NCBI GenBank assembly: GCA_903837595.1
Contig: CAILVI010000359.1
Location: 1 to 53,632 of the forward strand
Direction of reading: 5' to 3'
Source: an uncultured Thiodictyon sp.
GTDB lineage: Bacteria; Pseudomonadota; Gammaproteobacteria; Chromatiales; Chromatiaceae
DNA length: 53,632 nucleotides
The notes beneath the pieces were generated by a model. That model did not search any database. It worked only from the letters and a program-made list of their open reading frames with translations, and was not told the origin of the DNA. Of the stretch, positions 1-53,632 are shown in pieces (the first letter of the stretch is position 1; each line of letters opens with the position of its first letter). The position numbers and the translations under genes are program-made.

Positions 1-108
1 AATTCTCCCTCCCCTATTGGGGGAGGGCCGGGGAGGGGAACGGCCAAGGCGCCCGCCCCTTTCATCTTGCGGGGTGGTGCGGGCGCCATGGCCGTTACCG
101 TGAAGGCC
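1..108 (+). repeat. R1 stem-loop element, copy A (cut by window edge)
   Basis: First of three clear copies of a ~130 bp element (others at 30614-30744 and, inverted, 26922-27055). It has a CCCTCCCC...GGGGGAGGG mini-hairpin. It also has a long imperfect stem whose arms are AACGGCCAAGGCGCCCGC and GCGGGCGCCATGGCCGTT, 17 of 18 positions pairing. The left end is missing because the window begins inside it. No coding potential. The size and structure fit a REP- or MITE-like element. Confidence 0.8.
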
Positions 109-24888: not shown

Positions 24889-25827
24889 ATGAAACTGCGG
24901 CAATTGGTCTACCTCAACGAGGTCGTCCACCAAGACTGCAACATCTCGGCCGCGGCCAAGGCCCTCTACACCTCCCAGCCCGGCATCAGCCGCCAGCTCC
25001 AGGATCTGGGTGCGGAGCTGGGCTTGGAGATCTTCCAGCGCCAGGGCAAACGCCTGATCGGCTTGACCCAACCGGGCCTGGAGATCGCGGCGGTCGCGGC
25101 GCAGGTGATGGCGAATATCAAACACATCCGGAAGATCGCCGCTGCCCATGGCAGCGGGCAGTCCAGCCGACTCGTGGTGGTGGCAAGCCGCTATGCCGTG
25201 GCGACCCGCGTTCACGATGCCGTGGTGCGCTGCCGCACTGAATTGCCCGGACTCCACTTTCAGATTTCCGAAGAGGAGCCCGGCGCCGCCACCGCGATGC
25301 TGCGCTGCGGCGAGGCGGACCTGGGGGTCTTCGTCGAGTCAGCCACGCGGTACCCGGACCTGGCCTATTTCCCGCTGGAGGAGTGGCGACTGATCCTGGT
25401 CATCCCCCGGGACCATCCCATCGGCGCGCTGCCGCGGGTGACCCTCAAGGCGCTGGCCGGTTATCCCTGTTGCAGCTACAACCGCTCCGCGCGTACGCGC
25501 CAGGTGCTGGATGAGGCCTTCGCGTCAGCGAGGTTGGAGTCTCCCATCACCGTCTCGCTGGGCAGCAGCGCCGAGATCCTCAATTACGTGGCGACCGGGA
25601 TCGGCATCGGCCTGGTGGGCGAGGCCGCCTTCGACCCCGCGCACTATCCGGACCTGCGCCCCGTCGACCTCGGCCACCTGATCCGCCCCCTGACCACCAA
25701 CCTGGGGCTGCGCCACGCAGCACTCCAGTCGCAGGCCGTCCGCGCCTTCGTGCAGGTCATCGATCCGACGCTGTCACTCGATCGGCCGGAGCCTGCGCAA
25801 GGCAGCGCCGCGCCGCCGGTTTCGTGA
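24889..25827 (+). CDS. LysR-family regulator, CysB/Cbl type
   Basis: 312 residues. The N-terminal winged HTH is typical of CysB (MKLRQLVYLNEVVHQDCNIS, AAAKALYTSQPGISRQLQDLGAELGLEIFQR). The effector domain includes YNRSARTRQVLDEAF and the VATGIGIGLVGEAAFDP loop. CysB-type proteins activate sulfate assimilation and sulfonate genes with N-acetylserine or sulfate-ester ligands. No cys gene is adjacent, so the target is unknown. The C-terminal ~10 residues and the TGA lie at the boundary of the inverted-repeat element 25823-26004, which supplies the stop codon. Confidence 0.9.
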   Translation: MKLRQLVYLNEVVHQDCNISAAAKALYTSQPGISRQLQDLGAELGLEIFQRQGKRLIGLTQPGLEIAAVAAQVMANIKHIRKIAAAHGSGQSSRLVVVASRYAVATRVHDAVVRCRTELPGLHFQISEEEPGAATAMLRCGEADLGVFVESATRYPDLAYFPLEEWRLILVIPRDHPIGALPRVTLKALAGYPCCSYNRSARTRQVLDEAFASARLESPITVSLGSSAEILNYVATGIGIGLVGEAAFDPAHYPDLRPVDLGHLIRPLTTNLGLRHAALQSQAVRAFVQVIDPTLSLDRPEPAQGSAAPPVS

Positions 25828-26004
25828 CACCGCCCTAGAGACCGGGCAAGTATTCCGTAGGATGGGTAGAGCGCAGCGAAACCCATCGTTTGCGCGCGCC
25901 TAAGGCGTTGATTGCTGGGTTTCGCTGCGCTCTACCGAGCCTACAGGTCGCGCGCGCAAGGGACCGGCAGCGAATACTTGTCCAGTCTCTCTAGCGGTGT
26001 CACG
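25823..26004. repeat. 182-bp nested inverted-repeat element (MITE-like)
   Basis: The outer 32-33 bp inverted arms begin CGTGACACCGC and end CAAGTATTC on both sides, with a few mismatches. Inside lies a second palindrome: GTAGGATGGGTAGAGCGCAG facing CTGCGCTCTACCGAGCCTAC-type sequence, separated by GGCGCGCGCAAACG/CGCGCGCC-like sequence. The outer arm is the GTGACACCGC repeat seen as short hairpins elsewhere. It overlaps the cysB-like stop codon. Confidence 0.8.
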
Positions 26005-26241
26005 CCAATGTCGGGCACGGTGTGCCCCAAACGCTGCTGGAATCCAAGGCTGAAGCCTTGGACTCCGGCCCCCGGGGTGGCCGAGGGGCTATGCGATTTT
26101 GGCATAGAAGCCAGATCCCGAAGTAATTCTCCAAAACAGGTGAGTTTTACTATCGTCATCACCAAGAAACGACGGCCACCGCGCGCACCGCACAGCGACC
26201 GCACGCAGTCCGCCCCGATCGCCGGACCACAGGACACGCGC

Positions 26242-26826
26242 ATGAAGCCCAGCCACCGCCTCGCCGACGCCGGACGCCTTAGCGCCAGGACGTTGTTGGG
26301 CACCGCGCTCTGGGTACTGCTCACCGCAACGGCCGCGGCCGCCACCAAAGCCCAGACCCCGCCCACCCAGGCGACCAAGCCGGCACCCCAGGGGCAGGCA
26401 GGCAAGCCCGGCGCAGCGGCCCCAGCGGCGGAGTGCGCCAAGCCGGCGCGGCCCCAGGCGCGGCTGCTCGACGACGGCCTCATCGACCAGGGCGTGCTGG
26501 AAGGCACCGACCTGATGGAACAGGGGCTGGAGATCGGCGGCCTGACCACCGACCAGATGGTCACCAAGTTCGGCCACGACCTCTTCGACGCCTTCATCCT
26601 CTACTGGCGGCCGCCGCAAGGGGTGAACCACAACCTCTTCTTCAGCGAACTGCCCGATGCGCAGCGCGGCAGCGTCGCCACCATCCGCTTGAACGACCAG
26701 GTGATCTTCGAGGGGCTGCTGGTCCCGCGCGACGAGGTCATCCAGGAGCTCGGCAAGGGGCTGGCCCGGGACATCCGCAACCTGCTGCTCAGCAACGCCC
26801 GGCTGGAGGAGGAGGAATATTACTGA
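26242..26826 (+). CDS. csgE: Curli secretion specificity factor CsgE
   Basis: 194 residues from ATG 26242, which gives a signal peptide (TLLGTALWVLLTATAAAA). An Ala/Pro/Gln-rich linker follows. The CsgE domain (about 85-194) is clear: IGGLTTDQMVTKFGHDLFDAFILYW, FFSELPDAQRGSVATIRLND and VIFEGLLVPRDEVI. CsgE caps the CsgG nonamer in the periplasm and directs curli subunits to it. In this locus csgF is absent and csgG is cut by a repeat (27020-27340), so export should be impaired. The linker is longer than in enterobacterial CsgE. Confidence 0.87.
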   Translation: MKPSHRLADAGRLSARTLLGTALWVLLTATAAAATKAQTPPTQATKPAPQGQAGKPGAAAPAAECAKPARPQARLLDDGLIDQGVLEGTDLMEQGLEIGGLTTDQMVTKFGHDLFDAFILYWRPPQGVNHNLFFSELPDAQRGSVATIRLNDQVIFEGLLVPRDEVIQELGKGLARDIRNLLLSNARLEEEEYY

Positions 26827-26921
26827 TTTCGCAGCGCGCCCCAAAGACGGGAGTATCTGGGCATCGGTGGCCACACTGAATTCCAGCGCGACACCGTGAC
26901 GGTGTCACTGCGCGCCGTCTC

Positions 26922-27055
26922 GGTAACGGCCATGGCGCCCGCGCCACCCCGAACGATGAAAGTGGCGGGCGCCTTGGCCGTTCCCCCTCCCCGGCCCTCC
27001 CCCACAAGGGGGGGGAGAAGTGGAGCGCGCTCCCGGCGCGACTTTCACGGTAAAG
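26922..27055 (-). repeat. R1 stem-loop element, copy C, inside the curli locus
   Basis: Inverted copy of R1, running from the AACGGCCATGGCGCCCGC arm to the ACTTTCACGGTAA end; it aligns along its whole length with 30614-30744. It occupies nearly all of the space between csgE and the remaining csgG codons. A GACACCGTGACGGTGTC hairpin abuts its outer end (26889-26905). Confidence 0.85.
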
Positions 27056-27340
27056 GACGGCCGGGTGCTCAAGTCAGTGGAGACGCGCAAGACCATCCTG
27101 TCCTACAAGGTGGACGCCAGCGTGTTCAAGTTCGTCGGGCTCAAGGACCTGCTGGAGGGGGAGTCCGGCTTCAGCTCCAACGAGCCGCCGCAGATGGCGG
27201 CGAAGGAGGCGATCGAGGGTGCCGTCTACAGCCTGGCGCTGGAGGGGGCGGCGGACAGACTCTGGTCGTTTAAGGACCCGGAGCCGGGCAAGCGCCTGAT
27301 CCGCAAATACGAGGAAGAAAAGCAGGTCCAGCCGGGGGTG
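27020..27340 (+). pseudogene. csgG: csgG, C-terminal third only (5' end replaced by R1)
   Basis: From about base 27056 the frame codes DGRVLKSVETRKTILSYKVD, ASVFKFVGLKDLLEGESGFS, SNEPPQMAAKEAIEGAVYSL and DRLWSFKD. These match the last ~90 residues of CsgG (GEVLSSVNTSKTILSYEV...LLEGEVGYTSNEP...AIETGV...GLWDL). The ~190 preceding residues, with the lipobox and most of the beta-barrel, are missing. The first ~12 codons after a GTG at 27020 are R1 sequence. After the family's natural end the frame stays open to 27904, with no stop where csgG should end. It cannot make a working pore. Confidence 0.85.
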
Positions 27341-27398
27341 CGCGGCACGAGCGCTGGGACTGACCCTGCTGGCAGCGGGACTCTGCCCGGGCGGGTCC

Positions 27399-27851
27399 TT
27401 GGCCGGACCGCCAGCGGACAACAGTGTCAGTTTGGACGGCCTGAGGTGCCGCTATGCAACCCGGGCGCACTGGCTGGCGGACCAGGCCGAGCCCCCCGGC
27501 GGCCCCCGGCGGCTGGCCTTGGACGTCATCTGCGAGACCGCGAGCGGACGCGACGCGCGCACCGCCGCGCTTGCGGCACTCACGCTGCTGGATGCGGCGG
27601 GCCAGTCCTACCCGGGGGCAACCCAAGCGGCGTCCCCGGAGCCGGCCGGCGCCGCGTCCAAGCCGGCGCTGCCACAGGCGGACCGCGCGCCAGGGCTCCG
27701 CTCGCGAATCACTGCACCGCCGCCGGGGGAGGCCATGCGCGTGCGCACCCTCTTCACCGTGCCGGCCGTTCTGCCCGCCGGCCCCTGGCAGTTGCAACTG
27801 ACCGCGCCGGACCGGACCATCCGGTTGCCGCTGGAACTGCCGCCCGAATGA
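27399..27851 (+). CDS. Curli-locus periplasmic protein of unknown function
   Basis: 150 residues from TTG 27399, but the same frame is open upstream from 27300 and encodes a convincing signal peptide (ARALGLTLLAAGLCPGGSLAG) with no ATG, GTG or TTG before it. A GTG at 27338 is one base out of frame, so a single extra base near 27341-27350 would explain the loss of the start. The mature part has paired Cys (LRCRYATR, DVICETAS) and a final beta-rich segment (RVRTLFTVPAVLPAGPWQLQLTAPDRTIRLPLELP), Ig-like in character. I do not recognise the family. The gene may itself be damaged. Confidence 0.55.
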   Translation: MAGPPADNSVSLDGLRCRYATRAHWLADQAEPPGGPRRLALDVICETASGRDARTAALAALTLLDAAGQSYPGATQAASPEPAGAASKPALPQADRAPGLRSRITAPPPGEAMRVRTLFTVPAVLPAGPWQLQLTAPDRTIRLPLELPPE

Positions 27852-30565: not shown

Positions 30566-30613
30566 TCATCATCCCGGCCAGCGGCGATCCATCCGCAACC
30601 GGAGGTCGAGACT

Positions 30614-30744
30614 TACCGTGAAAGTCGCGCCGGGAGTACGCTCCAATTCTCCCTCCCCTATTGGGGGAGGGCGGGGTGGGGGAACGGCCAAGGCGCCCGC
30701 CACTTTCATCTTGCGGGGTCGTGCGGGCGCCATGGCCGTTAGCC
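30614..30744 (+). repeat. R1 stem-loop element, copy B, at the break of the DUF4338 gene
   Basis: Full-length copy from ACCGTGAAAGTCGCGCCGGG to GCCATGGCCGTTA. It aligns with copy C (26922-27055, inverted) and copy A (1-108). Its right end joins directly to the truncated DUF4338 reading frame at about 30745. Confidence 0.85.
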
Positions 30745-41366: not shown

Positions 41367-41491
41367 AATCCGGCTAACGCCCAAATTTGGAACGGCTGTG
41401 ATGGTATGGCGCAACCGACAGGTTACACCAGGGAGCCCCACGGGGTCCGCCGGGCAGACCTGAGCGGACCGCGGCCCAGACATGGGCCCAC

Positions 41492-41701
41492 GCATCCCTA
41501 TCTTGGGGCCCTGCGTTCCTATCTTTGGTCCATGTGTTTCTATCTTTGGTCCGTGCGTTCCCATCTTTGGTCCATGCATCCCTACCTTGGGCGCATGTTA
41601 GCCTGTCTTGGGCTCAAGTCGACCTACCATGGGCCCAAGGCCGGCTCGCTGGGTCCCAAGGGGGAAAGCCGGGGCACCAAGTTGAGAAACCACGGCATCA
41701 A
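41492..41701. repeat. 21-bp minisatellite, about ten units
   Basis: Tandem 21-bp units with consensus G-GTTCCTATCTTTGGTCCAT. The first five are well conserved (41492-41596); the next five keep only the CCTTGGGC-CAA/C-ACCAA ends. Because the unit is 21 bp, both strands give seven-residue repeats with no stop (THGPKIG on minus; variants of LVHASLP/WAHVSLS on plus). No start signal or family match supports translation. The decay gradient shows the array grew from the left end. Confidence 0.85.
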
Positions 41702-41825: not shown

Positions 41826-43498
41826 CTATGCGCCATCCCGATAGCGCCGCAACCAATCCTCAAAGAGCGGCACCCGCAGCCGCACCCGAGCCCCGTCCGC
41901 CACCACATAGCCATTGTCCAGCAGACGCCGCAAGGCCGCCCGGTCGGTCGGCGGCTCACCCGCCAATACCTGCTCCACACAATCACGGCAGGCCGGTTCC
42001 CGGCAGAACTCGTGCCAAAAGCGCTCCATCGGCGGCGTCTCTCGCGCGAGCACCTGCCCAAGCGACTCATCCAGGTCCGCCATGGTCATGGCATGACGCC
42101 CCTCGCGGTTGGCGATCGACACCAGTTGGTAACACAACCGCTGGAGCAACTCCGGATGCCCCTGGGTCAGGTCAAATCTGTGGCGGTCAGGACCTCGCGC
42201 GCGAGCGCCTGGCGCAAGTCCTCGCGGCCGAAGAAGACCGCCTGGTCCTGACCCGGACGCAGCGGGGTACCGGCGCGGTAGCGGTTGGGTGCCATCGGCT
42301 CCAATGCACTGGCCTGGTCGGCGAGATTGCGGCGCTCCTTTCCCGCCTCATCCAGCCAGGCGTCCAGCGCCTGCAGGTACCAGCGGTTCCAGCGCGGCGG
42401 CTCGGCCAGGGTCAATCGGCGCAATGCCTCCAGCCGGCGATAAAAATGCTGGAAGGCGTCGCGCTTGAGGCGGATATTGGTCTGGGTGCGCACCGCACAC
42501 AGGTCGGCCCTCAGGGCGGCGAGCGCCGCTTGCCAGTCTGCGCTGGGTTGGAAGCCGGTCTGTTCCTTGGGCAGTAGCGGCGGCACCAGGACCCCGGGTT
42601 CCAGCGGATGGAGCCGCCAGCCCCCGGCGTTGGCGGCGTGCAGGACGGCGGCGGCGAGTCCGGCCTGGAACGGGCGATATTCGAGCAGGAAGGCGCCGAA
42701 GGCCGCGCCGGTCTCGGGATCGGCAAAGGACTCATCGGACAGGCGACGCCGGGCGCGCCAGAGCGGAAGCCGCACCCCGACATCGTAAAGATAGGGATTG
42801 TGGCGCAGGTCCAGGCGGACCAATGCGATCAATGATTGGGGGACATAGACGGGTAGCCGCAGCCAACCGGCTAGCCAGCCCGCGCAGAAACCACCCCCCA
42901 AACCCACACCGCTGAGCAAGCCATCTGTCAGGCCCACTGCCAGGCCCCCTGCCAGGCCAAATGCCAGGCCCCATGCCAGGCCCACTGCCAGGCCCAATGC
43001 CAGGCCAAATGCCAGGCCCAATGCCAGGCCCAATGCCAGGCCCGCTGCCAGACCCCCTGCCAGACCAAATGCCAGGCCCAATGCCAGGCCCAATGCCAGG
43101 CCAAATGCCAGGCCTTCTGCCAGACCCGATGCCAGGCCCACTGCCAGGCCCAATGCCAGACGTCGGAGAACTGCTAATGCAGAATCAGCGACTAGCCAAT
43201 AGAACCGCCCACCCCAGTCGGTCGTGTCCTTGAAGGCCGCAACGACGCCGGACCTGAACTGATCGGGAAAGTGCAGCGGCAGGTCGGTCGTCGCGATGAG
43301 CGCGGAGGACAACAGGTAACAGACGATGGCCAGGGACGCCAGCCAGGGCAGTGCCCGCAGATAGAGTGCCTGGACCCGCCGCCGCGGCAGCCGCTGCGAC
43401 CAGGCCACCAACCGTGGCCACTCGAAATAGGTCCACCACAGCAGGTCCAACCCGGTCTTGGGCTCGGCCGGCAACCGGAAAGGCGTCCGGCGGTCCAT
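41826..43498 (-). pseudogene. STAND-type membrane NTPase, core deleted
   Basis: From ATG 43498 the frame has membrane segments (PWLASLAIVCYLLSSALIA), an 80-residue GLAx repeat region (about 113-194), a conserved cytoplasmic part (DESFADPETGAAFGAFLLEY), then QAVFFGREDLRQALAREVL. In relatives FFGREDLR opens a STAND/AAA ATPase domain. Here it is joined at once to TDLT, stop (42167). In another frame the true C-terminal end of such a domain follows: DLTQGHPELLQRLCYQLVSI, then the winged-helix-like part to 41826. The whole P-loop core of ~200 residues is missing and the two ends are out of frame. Confidence 0.75.
42920..43160 (-). repeat. 12-bp tandem repeat coding for GLAx units
   Basis: About 20 units of the 12-mer GCCAGGCCCAAT and variants (third and fourth codons vary between AAT, ACT, CCT). 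On the coding minus strand it gives Gly-Leu-Ala-(Leu/Phe/Val/Gly/Ser) tetrapeptides, very hydrophobic with a glycine-zipper character. The plus strand reads proline-rich shadow protein only. Confidence 0.9.
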
Positions 43499-50520: not shown

Positions 50521-53500
50521 TCATTGCCCCAGGACGGCACGCCAACCGCCGCGGCTCGGCAGTACCAGCGCCGTCTTAAGATACATTGCCGTGACGGCCT
50601 TGGCTGAGGTGACGTTGCTCAGAGTGCAGGTCGCGCCGACCTGCCCCGCGCAGTCCCCGCGCCAACCGGCGAAGATAAAACCAGCGCCAGCCCGGGCGGT
50701 GCAGATGCCGGTACCGGCCGGCGTGACCGGGTTGGGCGTGCAACTGGCCGTCCCGCCGGCCGCCGGGTTGGCGGTAGCGGTGATGGCGTAAGTGTTGAGG
50801 GTAAAGGTCGCGGTGCAGGTGGTGTTGGCCGTCAGCGCAAAGGCACTGGCGCAGGTGTCGGGGCTCCAGCCGGTGAAGGTGGAGTCGATCGCGGCGCTGG
50901 CGACCAGGGTGACGGCGGTACCTTTGGGATAGCTTTCGGTACAGTCCGTTCCGCAGTCGATCCCGGCTCCGGTCACCGTACCCGAACCCGTTCCGGCCTT
51001 GGTCACGGTCAGCAGCGGTCGGCTGAAGGTGGCCGTGACGCCCTTGGCCGCGTCCATCGTGACCGTGCAGGCACCCGAGCCCGTGCAGGCCCCGCTCCAG
51101 CCGGTGAAGATGGAAAGGCTGTCGGCCACGGCCGTGAGGGTCACGCTGGTGCCACTGACCAAGAGCTCATTGCAATCAGTGCCGCAATCGATGCCGGTGC
51201 CGGTTACTGTGCCGCCCCCCACACCGGGCTTGCTGACCATGAGGGGGTAGATACGGTTCTGCGCAGTGGCGACCCAAGCACCCTTGCTCGCAGCGGAACA
51301 CGTTATATTGAGTGTACCGTTATTATAAGGTAGCTGTCGGCTGTCAGTGTCTGTAAAATCAAACGTCCCCCCCACACTATTGGGTGTATCGAAAGAGCCA
51401 TTTACCAACAGCACTTGTCTCCAGCAGCGGTTGTCATTTGTGCCGCACCCTTCGAAAGAACCACCAATAGCGCTAAATTTTGAATTTTCAATGCTGATTG
51501 GGAGGAAACCAGCGCCATTCCTAGGATTGTATGGACCATCGTAAAATGGGCACAATGGCGAAGTGCCAGAACAGTGACAATATCCTGTAGCTCCAATATC
51601 AGCAAGAGACTGCATCCCGGATATTGCGCCATCCGCGGCTACATCGAATTGTTCCACAACACCATTACCATACCAACGCCCCAGAGCAATATTCAAAGGG
51701 GCGGGGCTGACGACATAGCCCGTGGTGTATTGGTTATTGCCGTCGTCGGTCTCCGCGGTCTGACAGGCGCTGTCGATGAAGGCGCGTAGGGTCTTGGCCC
51801 CGACCACACCCGCCGGCAGGCCGGTGAGCGTGACCGTCTGGCTGGCGCCCGCCGCCAGGCTAGCCAGGGTAGTGGACTGGTCGCCCACGGTACCGCACGT
51901 CTGCACGGTGGCCTGGTTGGACCAGACCTGTAACGTCCCCGCCGGACCGGCCATGCCGCCCTGATTCTGTACCGTGATGGCGGCGCTGAAGGTACCGTTG
52001 GCCGTCGGGCTGCTCGGAGTGAGGACAGCCCCGGTAATCACGAAGTCCGGGGGTGGCGGTGCCGCCACGGTATAGGCCGTAGTAGATTGGTTGTTGGTCT
52101 CGTCGGCCTCTGCGGTCTCACAGGCGCTGTCGATGAAAGCGAGCAGGTCCTTGGCGCCGGCCACACCCGCCGGCAGACCGGTGAGCGTGACCGTTTGGCT
52201 GGCACCCACAGCCAGGCTCGCCAGGGTGGCGGATTGGTCGCCCACCGCGCCGCACGCCTGCGCAGCAGACTGGTCGGACCAGACCTGCAACGTCCCCGGA
52301 GTACCGGCCACGCTGCCCTGGTTTTGCACCGTGACCGCGGCACTGAAGGTGTCACCGGTCGTTGGGCTGCTCGGGGTGAGGACGACACCGGTTACCACGA
52401 AGTCGGGGGACGGTACCGCGACGGTATAAGCAGTAGTAAATTGGTTGTTGGTCTCGTCGGCCTCTGCGGTCTGACAGGTGCTGTCAATGAAGGTGCGCAA
52501 AGTCTCGCCCACACCCGCCGCCAGACCGCTGACTATGACCGTCTGGCTGGCGCCCGCCGCCAGGCTCGCCAGGGTGGCGGATTGGTCGCCCACAGCGCCA
52601 CAGTCCTGTAGGCTGCCCTGGTTGGCCCAGACTTGCAGGACCCCTGGAGTACCGGCCACGCTGCCTTGGTTCTTCACCGTGATTGAGGTACTGAAGGTAC
52701 CGTTGACCGTCGGACTGCTCGGCGTCAGGATGACACCGGTTACCATAAAGTCCGGCTTGGGGAAGAGCCCGATCTCGACCGGACTGCAGCGATCAGTGGC
52801 CGTACCGTCGCCGATCTGTCCATACCGATTATCTCCCCACGCCCAAAGACTACCGTCAGTCTTGAGAGCCAGGTTGTGATCGACAAGGCTTGCCATCGCC
52901 GAGACTCCGGTAAGCACCAGGTTGGGTGTCGGGCGTGTCGTGGTTGTACCATCGCCGAGTTGGCCGATCCAGTTGTTCCCCCAGGCCCAGAGGCTGCCGT
53001 CGGTCTTGAGGGCTAGGGTGTGAAAATAACCGGCCGCCACGGCCGCGACACCGCTCAGGACCTGGACCGGACTCAGGCGGGGCGTGGTAGTGCCATCGCC
53101 GAGTTGGCCGTCGCTGTTCGCCCCCCAGGCCCATAGGCTGCCGTCGGTCTTGAGCGCTAGGCTGTGATAGGAGCCAGCCGACACTGCCGCGACCCCGGTG
53201 AGTACCGCGACCGGAACCCTATGACTTATGGTCGTGCCGTCGCCGAGTTGGCCGGTCCAGTTGTCCCCCCAGGCCCAGAGGCTACCGTCGGACTTGATGG
53301 CCAGCGTGTGCTTACCTCCGGCCGCCACGCCAACGACCCCGGTCAGGATCTGCTCTGGATTCTGGCGATTCGCCAAGCTGCCGTCGCCGAGTTGGCCATC
53401 TTCGTTATGTCCCCACGCCCACAGGATACCGTCGGTCTTGATGGCGAAGCTGTTACCATCAACGCCGCCCGTCACCGCCGCGACCCCGGCCAGTATTTGA

Positions 53501-53632
53501 ACCGGCATCAAGCGCTCCATGTCATTGCCGTCGCCGAGTTGGCCGTACCAGTCTGCTCCCCACGCCCACAGACTGCCCTCGGACTTGATGGCCAGCGTGT
53601 GCCGATCACCAGCCGCCACCGCCGCCACCCCG
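50521..53632 (-). CDS. Large RCC1/CARDB repeat surface protein (5' end outside window)
   Basis: At least 1036 residues; the frame runs out of the window, and the apparent GTG start at 53628 lies within a repeat. Six RCC1-type propeller repeats come first ([33 protein letters not shown]). Three CARDB modules follow ([47 protein letters not shown]), each about 105 residues. Then a ~150-residue unrecognised Cys-containing domain ([36 protein letters not shown]). Last come three to four InlB-like beta-repeats ([29 protein letters not shown]). The base composition of the middle domain (about 51250-51720) is AT-richer than the rest. Probably secreted or cell-surface adhesin-like. Confidence 0.85.

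Follow-up and report, generated by a model that had tools for sequence, protein, structure and literature searches.

What removed csgF and most of csgG from the curli secretion locus of this uncultured Thiodictyon, and was it the small palindromic repeat that lies there? In the window, the whole 53,632-nucleotide stretch of DNA analysed, csgE is intact (26242-26826, + strand; open frame, Pfam CsgE E 2.6e-13, NCBIfam CsgE E 4.4e-12, under that model's cut-off) and by eye has a signal-peptide-like start. A 130-bp repeat, R1 (26924-27053, + strand; TAACGGCC...CACGGTAA), whose left 60 bases can form a strong stem-loop, precedes the C-terminal piece of csgG. Two more copies lie in the window, one at 1-97 (- strand) truncated by the contig end and one of full length at 30613-30741 (- strand); three occurrences are far more than chance would give. 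The preliminary description was right about the intact csgE, the three copies of the repeat and the csgG piece that follows one of them. It went on to place R1 exactly at the break of csgG, as the agent of the loss and the supplier of a new start. Our analysis makes a different reading very probable: R1 is a dispersed mobile element that inserted in csgG, and a separate upstream deletion removed csgF and 171 csgG codons.

The csgG remnant lies on both sides of R1. The left piece (26854-26925, + strand; YLGIGGHTEFQRDTVTVSLRAVSV) is 75% identical to residues 172-195 of CsgG from Methylolobus aquaticus (locus L034; E 1.6e-12). The right piece (27053-27328, + strand; KDGRVLKSVETRK...KYEEEKQV) is 67% identical to residues 196-287 (E 1e-50) and covers positions 137-207 of the 210 in the Pfam CsgG model. 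Both E-values were computed against a small set of open frames taken from 10 loci, and the right query ended at 27331. When genome contigs were scanned with the right piece, two relatives matched at 66%, M. aquaticus and Methylotetracoccus oryzae (L035). The reference locus has csgE, csgF and csgG in a row, each matching its own Pfam family (E 3e-16, 2e-22 and 9e-55). As the left piece ends at residue 195 and the right begins at 196, no residue is missing between them. Four genomes of the same family also gave two adjoining CsgG matches, at about 49-57% (L014/L100, L015/L098, L013/L099 and L096), and the CsgG frame of L097 gave no match in the same two-piece comparison. The remnant had been described as starting only at the last ~90 residues of CsgG; it starts 24 residues earlier, at 26854, and 26821-26925 read in one frame as the end of csgE, a stop and then FRSAPQRREYLGIGGHTEFQRDTVTVSLRAVSV.

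Joining the csgG flanks without R1 gives LRAVSVKDGRVLKSVETRK, against LRLVSVKDGRILKSVETRK in M. aquaticus. A direct repeat, CGGTAA, stands at 26921-26926 and again at 27048-27053 (both + strand). The net gain is 127 bp, and as this is not a multiple of three the insertion breaks the csgG frame. These alignments show R1 as an insertion within continuous csgG sequence and not as an element at the csgG break. The preliminary description was right about the arrival of a small repeat in the locus. Comparison with an intact csgEFG locus had been proposed as a way to find the join and any target-site duplication. Against M. aquaticus the join falls at 26827-26853. The CGGTAA copies fall short of proving a target-site duplication, since empty sites elsewhere are without GGTAA and the bases may have come with the element.

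The break itself is at 26827-26853, where csgF and csgG codons 1-171 are missing. From the csgE stop to the Tyr172 codon of CsgG there are 27 bp here and 1,079 bp in M. aquaticus, as computed from coordinates; the deletion of about 1.05 kb is thus sized against a distant relative, 67-75% identical, across a join known from the assembly alone. R1 begins about 70 bp or more downstream of this join. Compared with R1, the first 24 bases after the csgE stop reach a score of 17, and 486 of 3980 random 24-base windows of the contig score equal or higher; with so common a score, nothing ties R1 to the join. The sequence shows a separate deletion just upstream of R1 that took csgF and the first 171 csgG codons, and the earlier claim that R1 removed them is not supported. 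Part of the join region matches the M. aquaticus codons for KDGRIL at 14/16 bases, which was set aside as chance.

R1 might still have made the deletion if a copy behind csgE had recombined with another in csgG, taking csgF and the 5' part of csgG with it. The repeat has many copies, and the one here is no more than about 70 bp from the missing segment. However, a deletion of this kind would end at R1, and 72 bp of csgG are kept between the join and the repeat. An extra deletion or gene conversion would be required, and the bases after csgE are no closer to R1 than many random windows are. We regard this recombination as very improbable. Even less probable is an assembly artefact that joined two unrelated contigs through R1: several draft contigs do start or end in R1, but the two sides of the repeat are adjoining parts of one csgG, no other CsgG piece was found in the assembly, and the deletion join has no trace of R1. 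The insertion and the separate deletion remain our preferred account. R1 in csgG is an ordinary kind of insertion into a curli remnant with an independent deletion, and the causal lesson is that a repeat adjoining a lesion need not be its maker.

The apparent new start is real as sequence. A GTG at 27020 leads through 11 R1 codons (27020-27052, + strand) in frame into csgG, as had been noted. Of 60 R1 copies, 23 have GTG and 20 have TTG at this position (43/60 together), which makes the start a feature of the repeat, and we take it as chance. Agreement of the R1 frame with that of csgG is roughly a one-in-three event, and we assign it no function. Part of CsgG carries the signal and lipid anchor, and a short product started in R1 would be without that region. 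That such a short CsgG is made and used is the least probable reading of all: the GTG and its 11 codons are in frame, but this start is common among R1 copies, the first 195 CsgG residues would be absent, the frame goes on to 27904, and no CsgF or curlin partner was found.

The 3' end of csgG is altered too. Likeness to CsgG of M. aquaticus fades just past KQV, at about 27331 (by eye; the query ended there), and the csgG frame has no stop at that point and continues to 27904. At its 3' end csgG is fused to an open frame with a signal-like segment (27332-27851, + strand); within that segment lies the open frame's first candidate start (ATG, GTG or TTG), a TTG at 27399. The csgG-frame run to 27904 is in a different frame from this next signal-bearing open frame. 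The open frame from 27399 on had no Pfam match. A second deletion, at the junction of the csgG 3' end and the signal-bearing frame, is probable.

What is left of curli in this genome is small. CsgE has one match and CsgG only the C-terminal piece at the R1 locus. Searches of the genome's own assembly gave no match for CsgF, for a second CsgG or, with the Pfam curlin model, for the curlin repeat; the E. coli control was positive in the CsgE, CsgG, CsgF and curlin-repeat searches. A full csgG elsewhere, which would have made the remnant a duplicate fragment, is thus not seen in the assembly. This is rated 100% complete in 576 contigs, from which a small contig could have been lost. In PMC3521004, 47 of 401 curlins (12%) escaped the Pfam curlin model, so that the absence of curlins here is not certain. 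Neither a full csgEFG secretion locus nor a curlin gene was found. CsgE had no match in the other seven Thiodictyon genomes, and across the family CsgF occurs in 5 genomes out of 210, none of them among the eight of Thiodictyon. Since the searches gave no CsgF, curlin repeat or full CsgG, this genome is not expected to secrete curli, and the locus would be a decaying remnant, dead through separate lesions.

R1 itself is a well-defined element. The R1 query gave at least 43 matches in the genome's own assembly (40 of 160 candidates scored), and its ends, with up to one mismatch, occur there 64 (left) and 67 (right) times, against 1 and 0 for reversed control patterns. We listed 63 copies with flanks, 60 fetched and three from the window; 60 have both ends, the set leaving out L055, L075 and the window copy at 1-97. 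All 60 are 127-132 bp and 36 are exactly 129 bp, with TAACGG as the usual start and CACGGTAA as the usual end. TAA forms the first three bases in 53 of the 60, the last three in 49 and both in 43. The ends hardly vary between copies; the flanks mostly do, save that G stands two bases before the element in 53/60 and the preceding base is C in 35 and G in 23. The csgG copy is at most 96% identical to other copies (median 92%). Whole-element DNA folding gave z values of -4.6 on one strand and -3.4 on the other, and of the three forward frames, numbered from the left end, two stay open in most copies, one in 51 and the other in 52 of 60.

R1 matched in all eight Thiodictyon genomes, as whole elements in G000, G035, G107 and G118; among the matches listed, those in G079, G116, G117 and G119 are only partial. 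A phage search for R1 gave no match, and a plasmid search gave one record, a 484,824-bp plasmid of Thiodictyon syntrophicum (74.6%). R1 is a genus-wide dispersed palindromic element, mostly of 129 bp. A limited literature search on the Thiodictyon genome, curli with insertions, RPE, RAYT/REPIN and in-frame palindromic repeats found no description of the family. This repeat family matters for Thiodictyon, as it breaks genes and stands at many contig ends.

Empty sites in relatives bear on how R1 arrives. Within the genus, 14 of 47 joined flank pairs were searched and continuous matches were aligned for four. At a site in hsdR (L036) all four relative loci are empty and gap-free at the join, with GGTGAA. 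At a site in a repeat (L078) the same is true of five out of five loci, four in G035 and one in G118, with GGGTAGAG. The L090 site was gap-free in one of five comparisons (GCTAAC), the other four having indels, and the L080 site showed a one-base gap in its single comparison. Because the relatives are without GGTAA at the three gap-free sites, GGTAA may be a duplicated target or partly borne by the element. These joins show that R1 is genuinely inserted, at sites resembling GGT or TAA. Such clean empty sites are a way into how small palindromic elements move.

Tandem copies are a further clue. They overlap by exactly three bases on contigs C489, C544 and C331 (TAA) and C369 (CAA), and tandems with three shared bases occur also in two relatives' loci, L086 and L020. 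It seems likely that R1 is a non-autonomous mobile element, with its enzyme supplied from elsewhere. Its insertion sites would resemble GGTAA, or TTACC when read on the opposite strand, and each inserted copy would have GGTAA or TAA at either end. An existing copy could offer its own end as a target, giving tandem copies that share three bases.

Transposases of the Y1 type are present in seven of the eight Thiodictyon genomes (83 matches). At 30 Y1 loci from these 83 matches, R1 ends gave only short matches (E 0.04 or weaker) or none, and no transposase there could be tied to R1; in one Y1 locus (L107) there is a partial R1-like core at a distance of about 0.9 kb. A long element bounded by R1 ends was sought in one genome's end lists and the loci fetched, in a draft that often breaks at R1, and no end pair about 1-2 kb apart was found. 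Among 20 stretches fetched after pairing of R1 ends, several stopped at a contig end near R1 and the others held diverged partners or other cores.

R1 has entered other genes with different effects. In hsdR (L036 66-1199, + strand, contig C556) it lies between the HSDR_N and ResIII matches, in frame and without a stop, adding about 42 residues; the type I restriction hsdR of relatives (L133, L134) is without R1. In dinB, for DNA polymerase IV (L039, about 290-418, contig C107), it splits the gene and leaves parts of the Y-family polymerase in different frames. Pfam was run on 30 of 47 stop-free frames that span R1. Five had domain matches, and only in hsdR do these flank R1 within one reading frame.

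How does R1 compare with known small elements? Bacterial MITEs, with the Correia element as type, are described in part of PMC10969869 as short, multi-copy, dispersed elements with no internal transposase gene, which interrupt genes and sometimes fuse frames. R1 is likewise short, dispersed and high in copy number, has no transposase gene inside, interrupts genes and sometimes fuses frames, but it lacks their terminal inverted repeats: between TAACGGCCATGG and TTACCGTGAAAG few bases agree by eye, and TAACGG against the reverse complement of the other end, TTACCG, makes a poor inverted repeat. No parent insertion sequence was found for R1. As to target-site duplication, CGGTAA stands on both sides at csgG; the relatives' empty sites have GGTGAA, GGGTAGAG and GCTAAC.

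With REP/REPIN elements, whose RAYT is also called TnpA-REP, R1 shares its palindromic form, its many copies, some of them in tandem, and the presence of Y1 transposases in seven of eight genomes. Elements of that kind flank a Y1/RAYT gene; R1 ends were not found at the 30 Y1 loci drawn from 83 matches, beyond short matches of E >=0.04. The R1 consensus is also without the GTAG tag that a portion of PMC3733652 gives for REP/REPIN, and at about 129 bp R1 exceeds the 20-40 bp of REP units. Rickettsia palindromic elements (RPE), in the portion of PMC10969869 on them, are about 150 bp, palindromic and found inside genes. Their insertions in protein genes are mostly in frame. R1 is of similar size and palindromic, and one copy is in frame in hsdR; however, the dinB and csgG copies are out of frame, there is no CGTC tag, and most copies were not placed in genes.

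A fourth group was compared. Non-autonomous elements of the IS200/IS605 type, a family described in part in PMC6006769, insert site-specifically beside a short target, without duplication, and have end hairpins. In R1 the site resembles TTACC and one end folds into a strong hairpin, and the bases at the relatives' empty sites vary. We suggest, tentatively and with more doubt than belief, that R1 represents a novel type of small cassette, with fixed ends and interchangeable palindromic cores, GGTAA-specific insertion via a joined, TAA-sharing, stackable form, sometimes about 42 in-frame residues, and an enzyme not yet known.

Several minor observations concern R1 and its surroundings. A subset of copies, the csgG copy not among them, has longer arms, GGTCGAGGCTTTA and AAAGCCTCGACC. 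GGTCGAGGCTTTA lies far to the left of some copies, and CCTCGACC stands at most 20 bases from the right end in 10 of the 63 listed copies (L038, L042, L045, L060, L069, L070, L072, L076, L084 and L091), a pattern that would fit a larger inverted-repeat element with R1 at its core. Two loci of G119 (L021, L027) and one of the window's own genome (L165) have outer ends as in R1 around a different palindromic core; by eye, the L165 core looks like the GTGGGAGCGGCTTTAGCCGCGAC repeat found at 115-200 of the window. Contig ends of this genome often fall in R1 (for example C15, C28, C33, C204, C272 and C309, and window 1-97), and with R1 at so many of them it probably breaks short-read assemblies of Thiodictyon.

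An Rfam scan of 25700-27400 gave four microRNA-type matches, all under gathering scores, which were taken as chance. Another palindromic repeat lies at 25863-25945 (GGTAGAGCGCAGCGAAACCCATCG...), and sequence of its type forms the left flank of two R1 copies (L051, L055), which by eye suggests nesting. Tandem repeats have periods of 21 bp at 41485-41610, 12 bp at 42869-43204 and about 144 to 357 bp at 51710-53601, and are perhaps in repetitive proteins.
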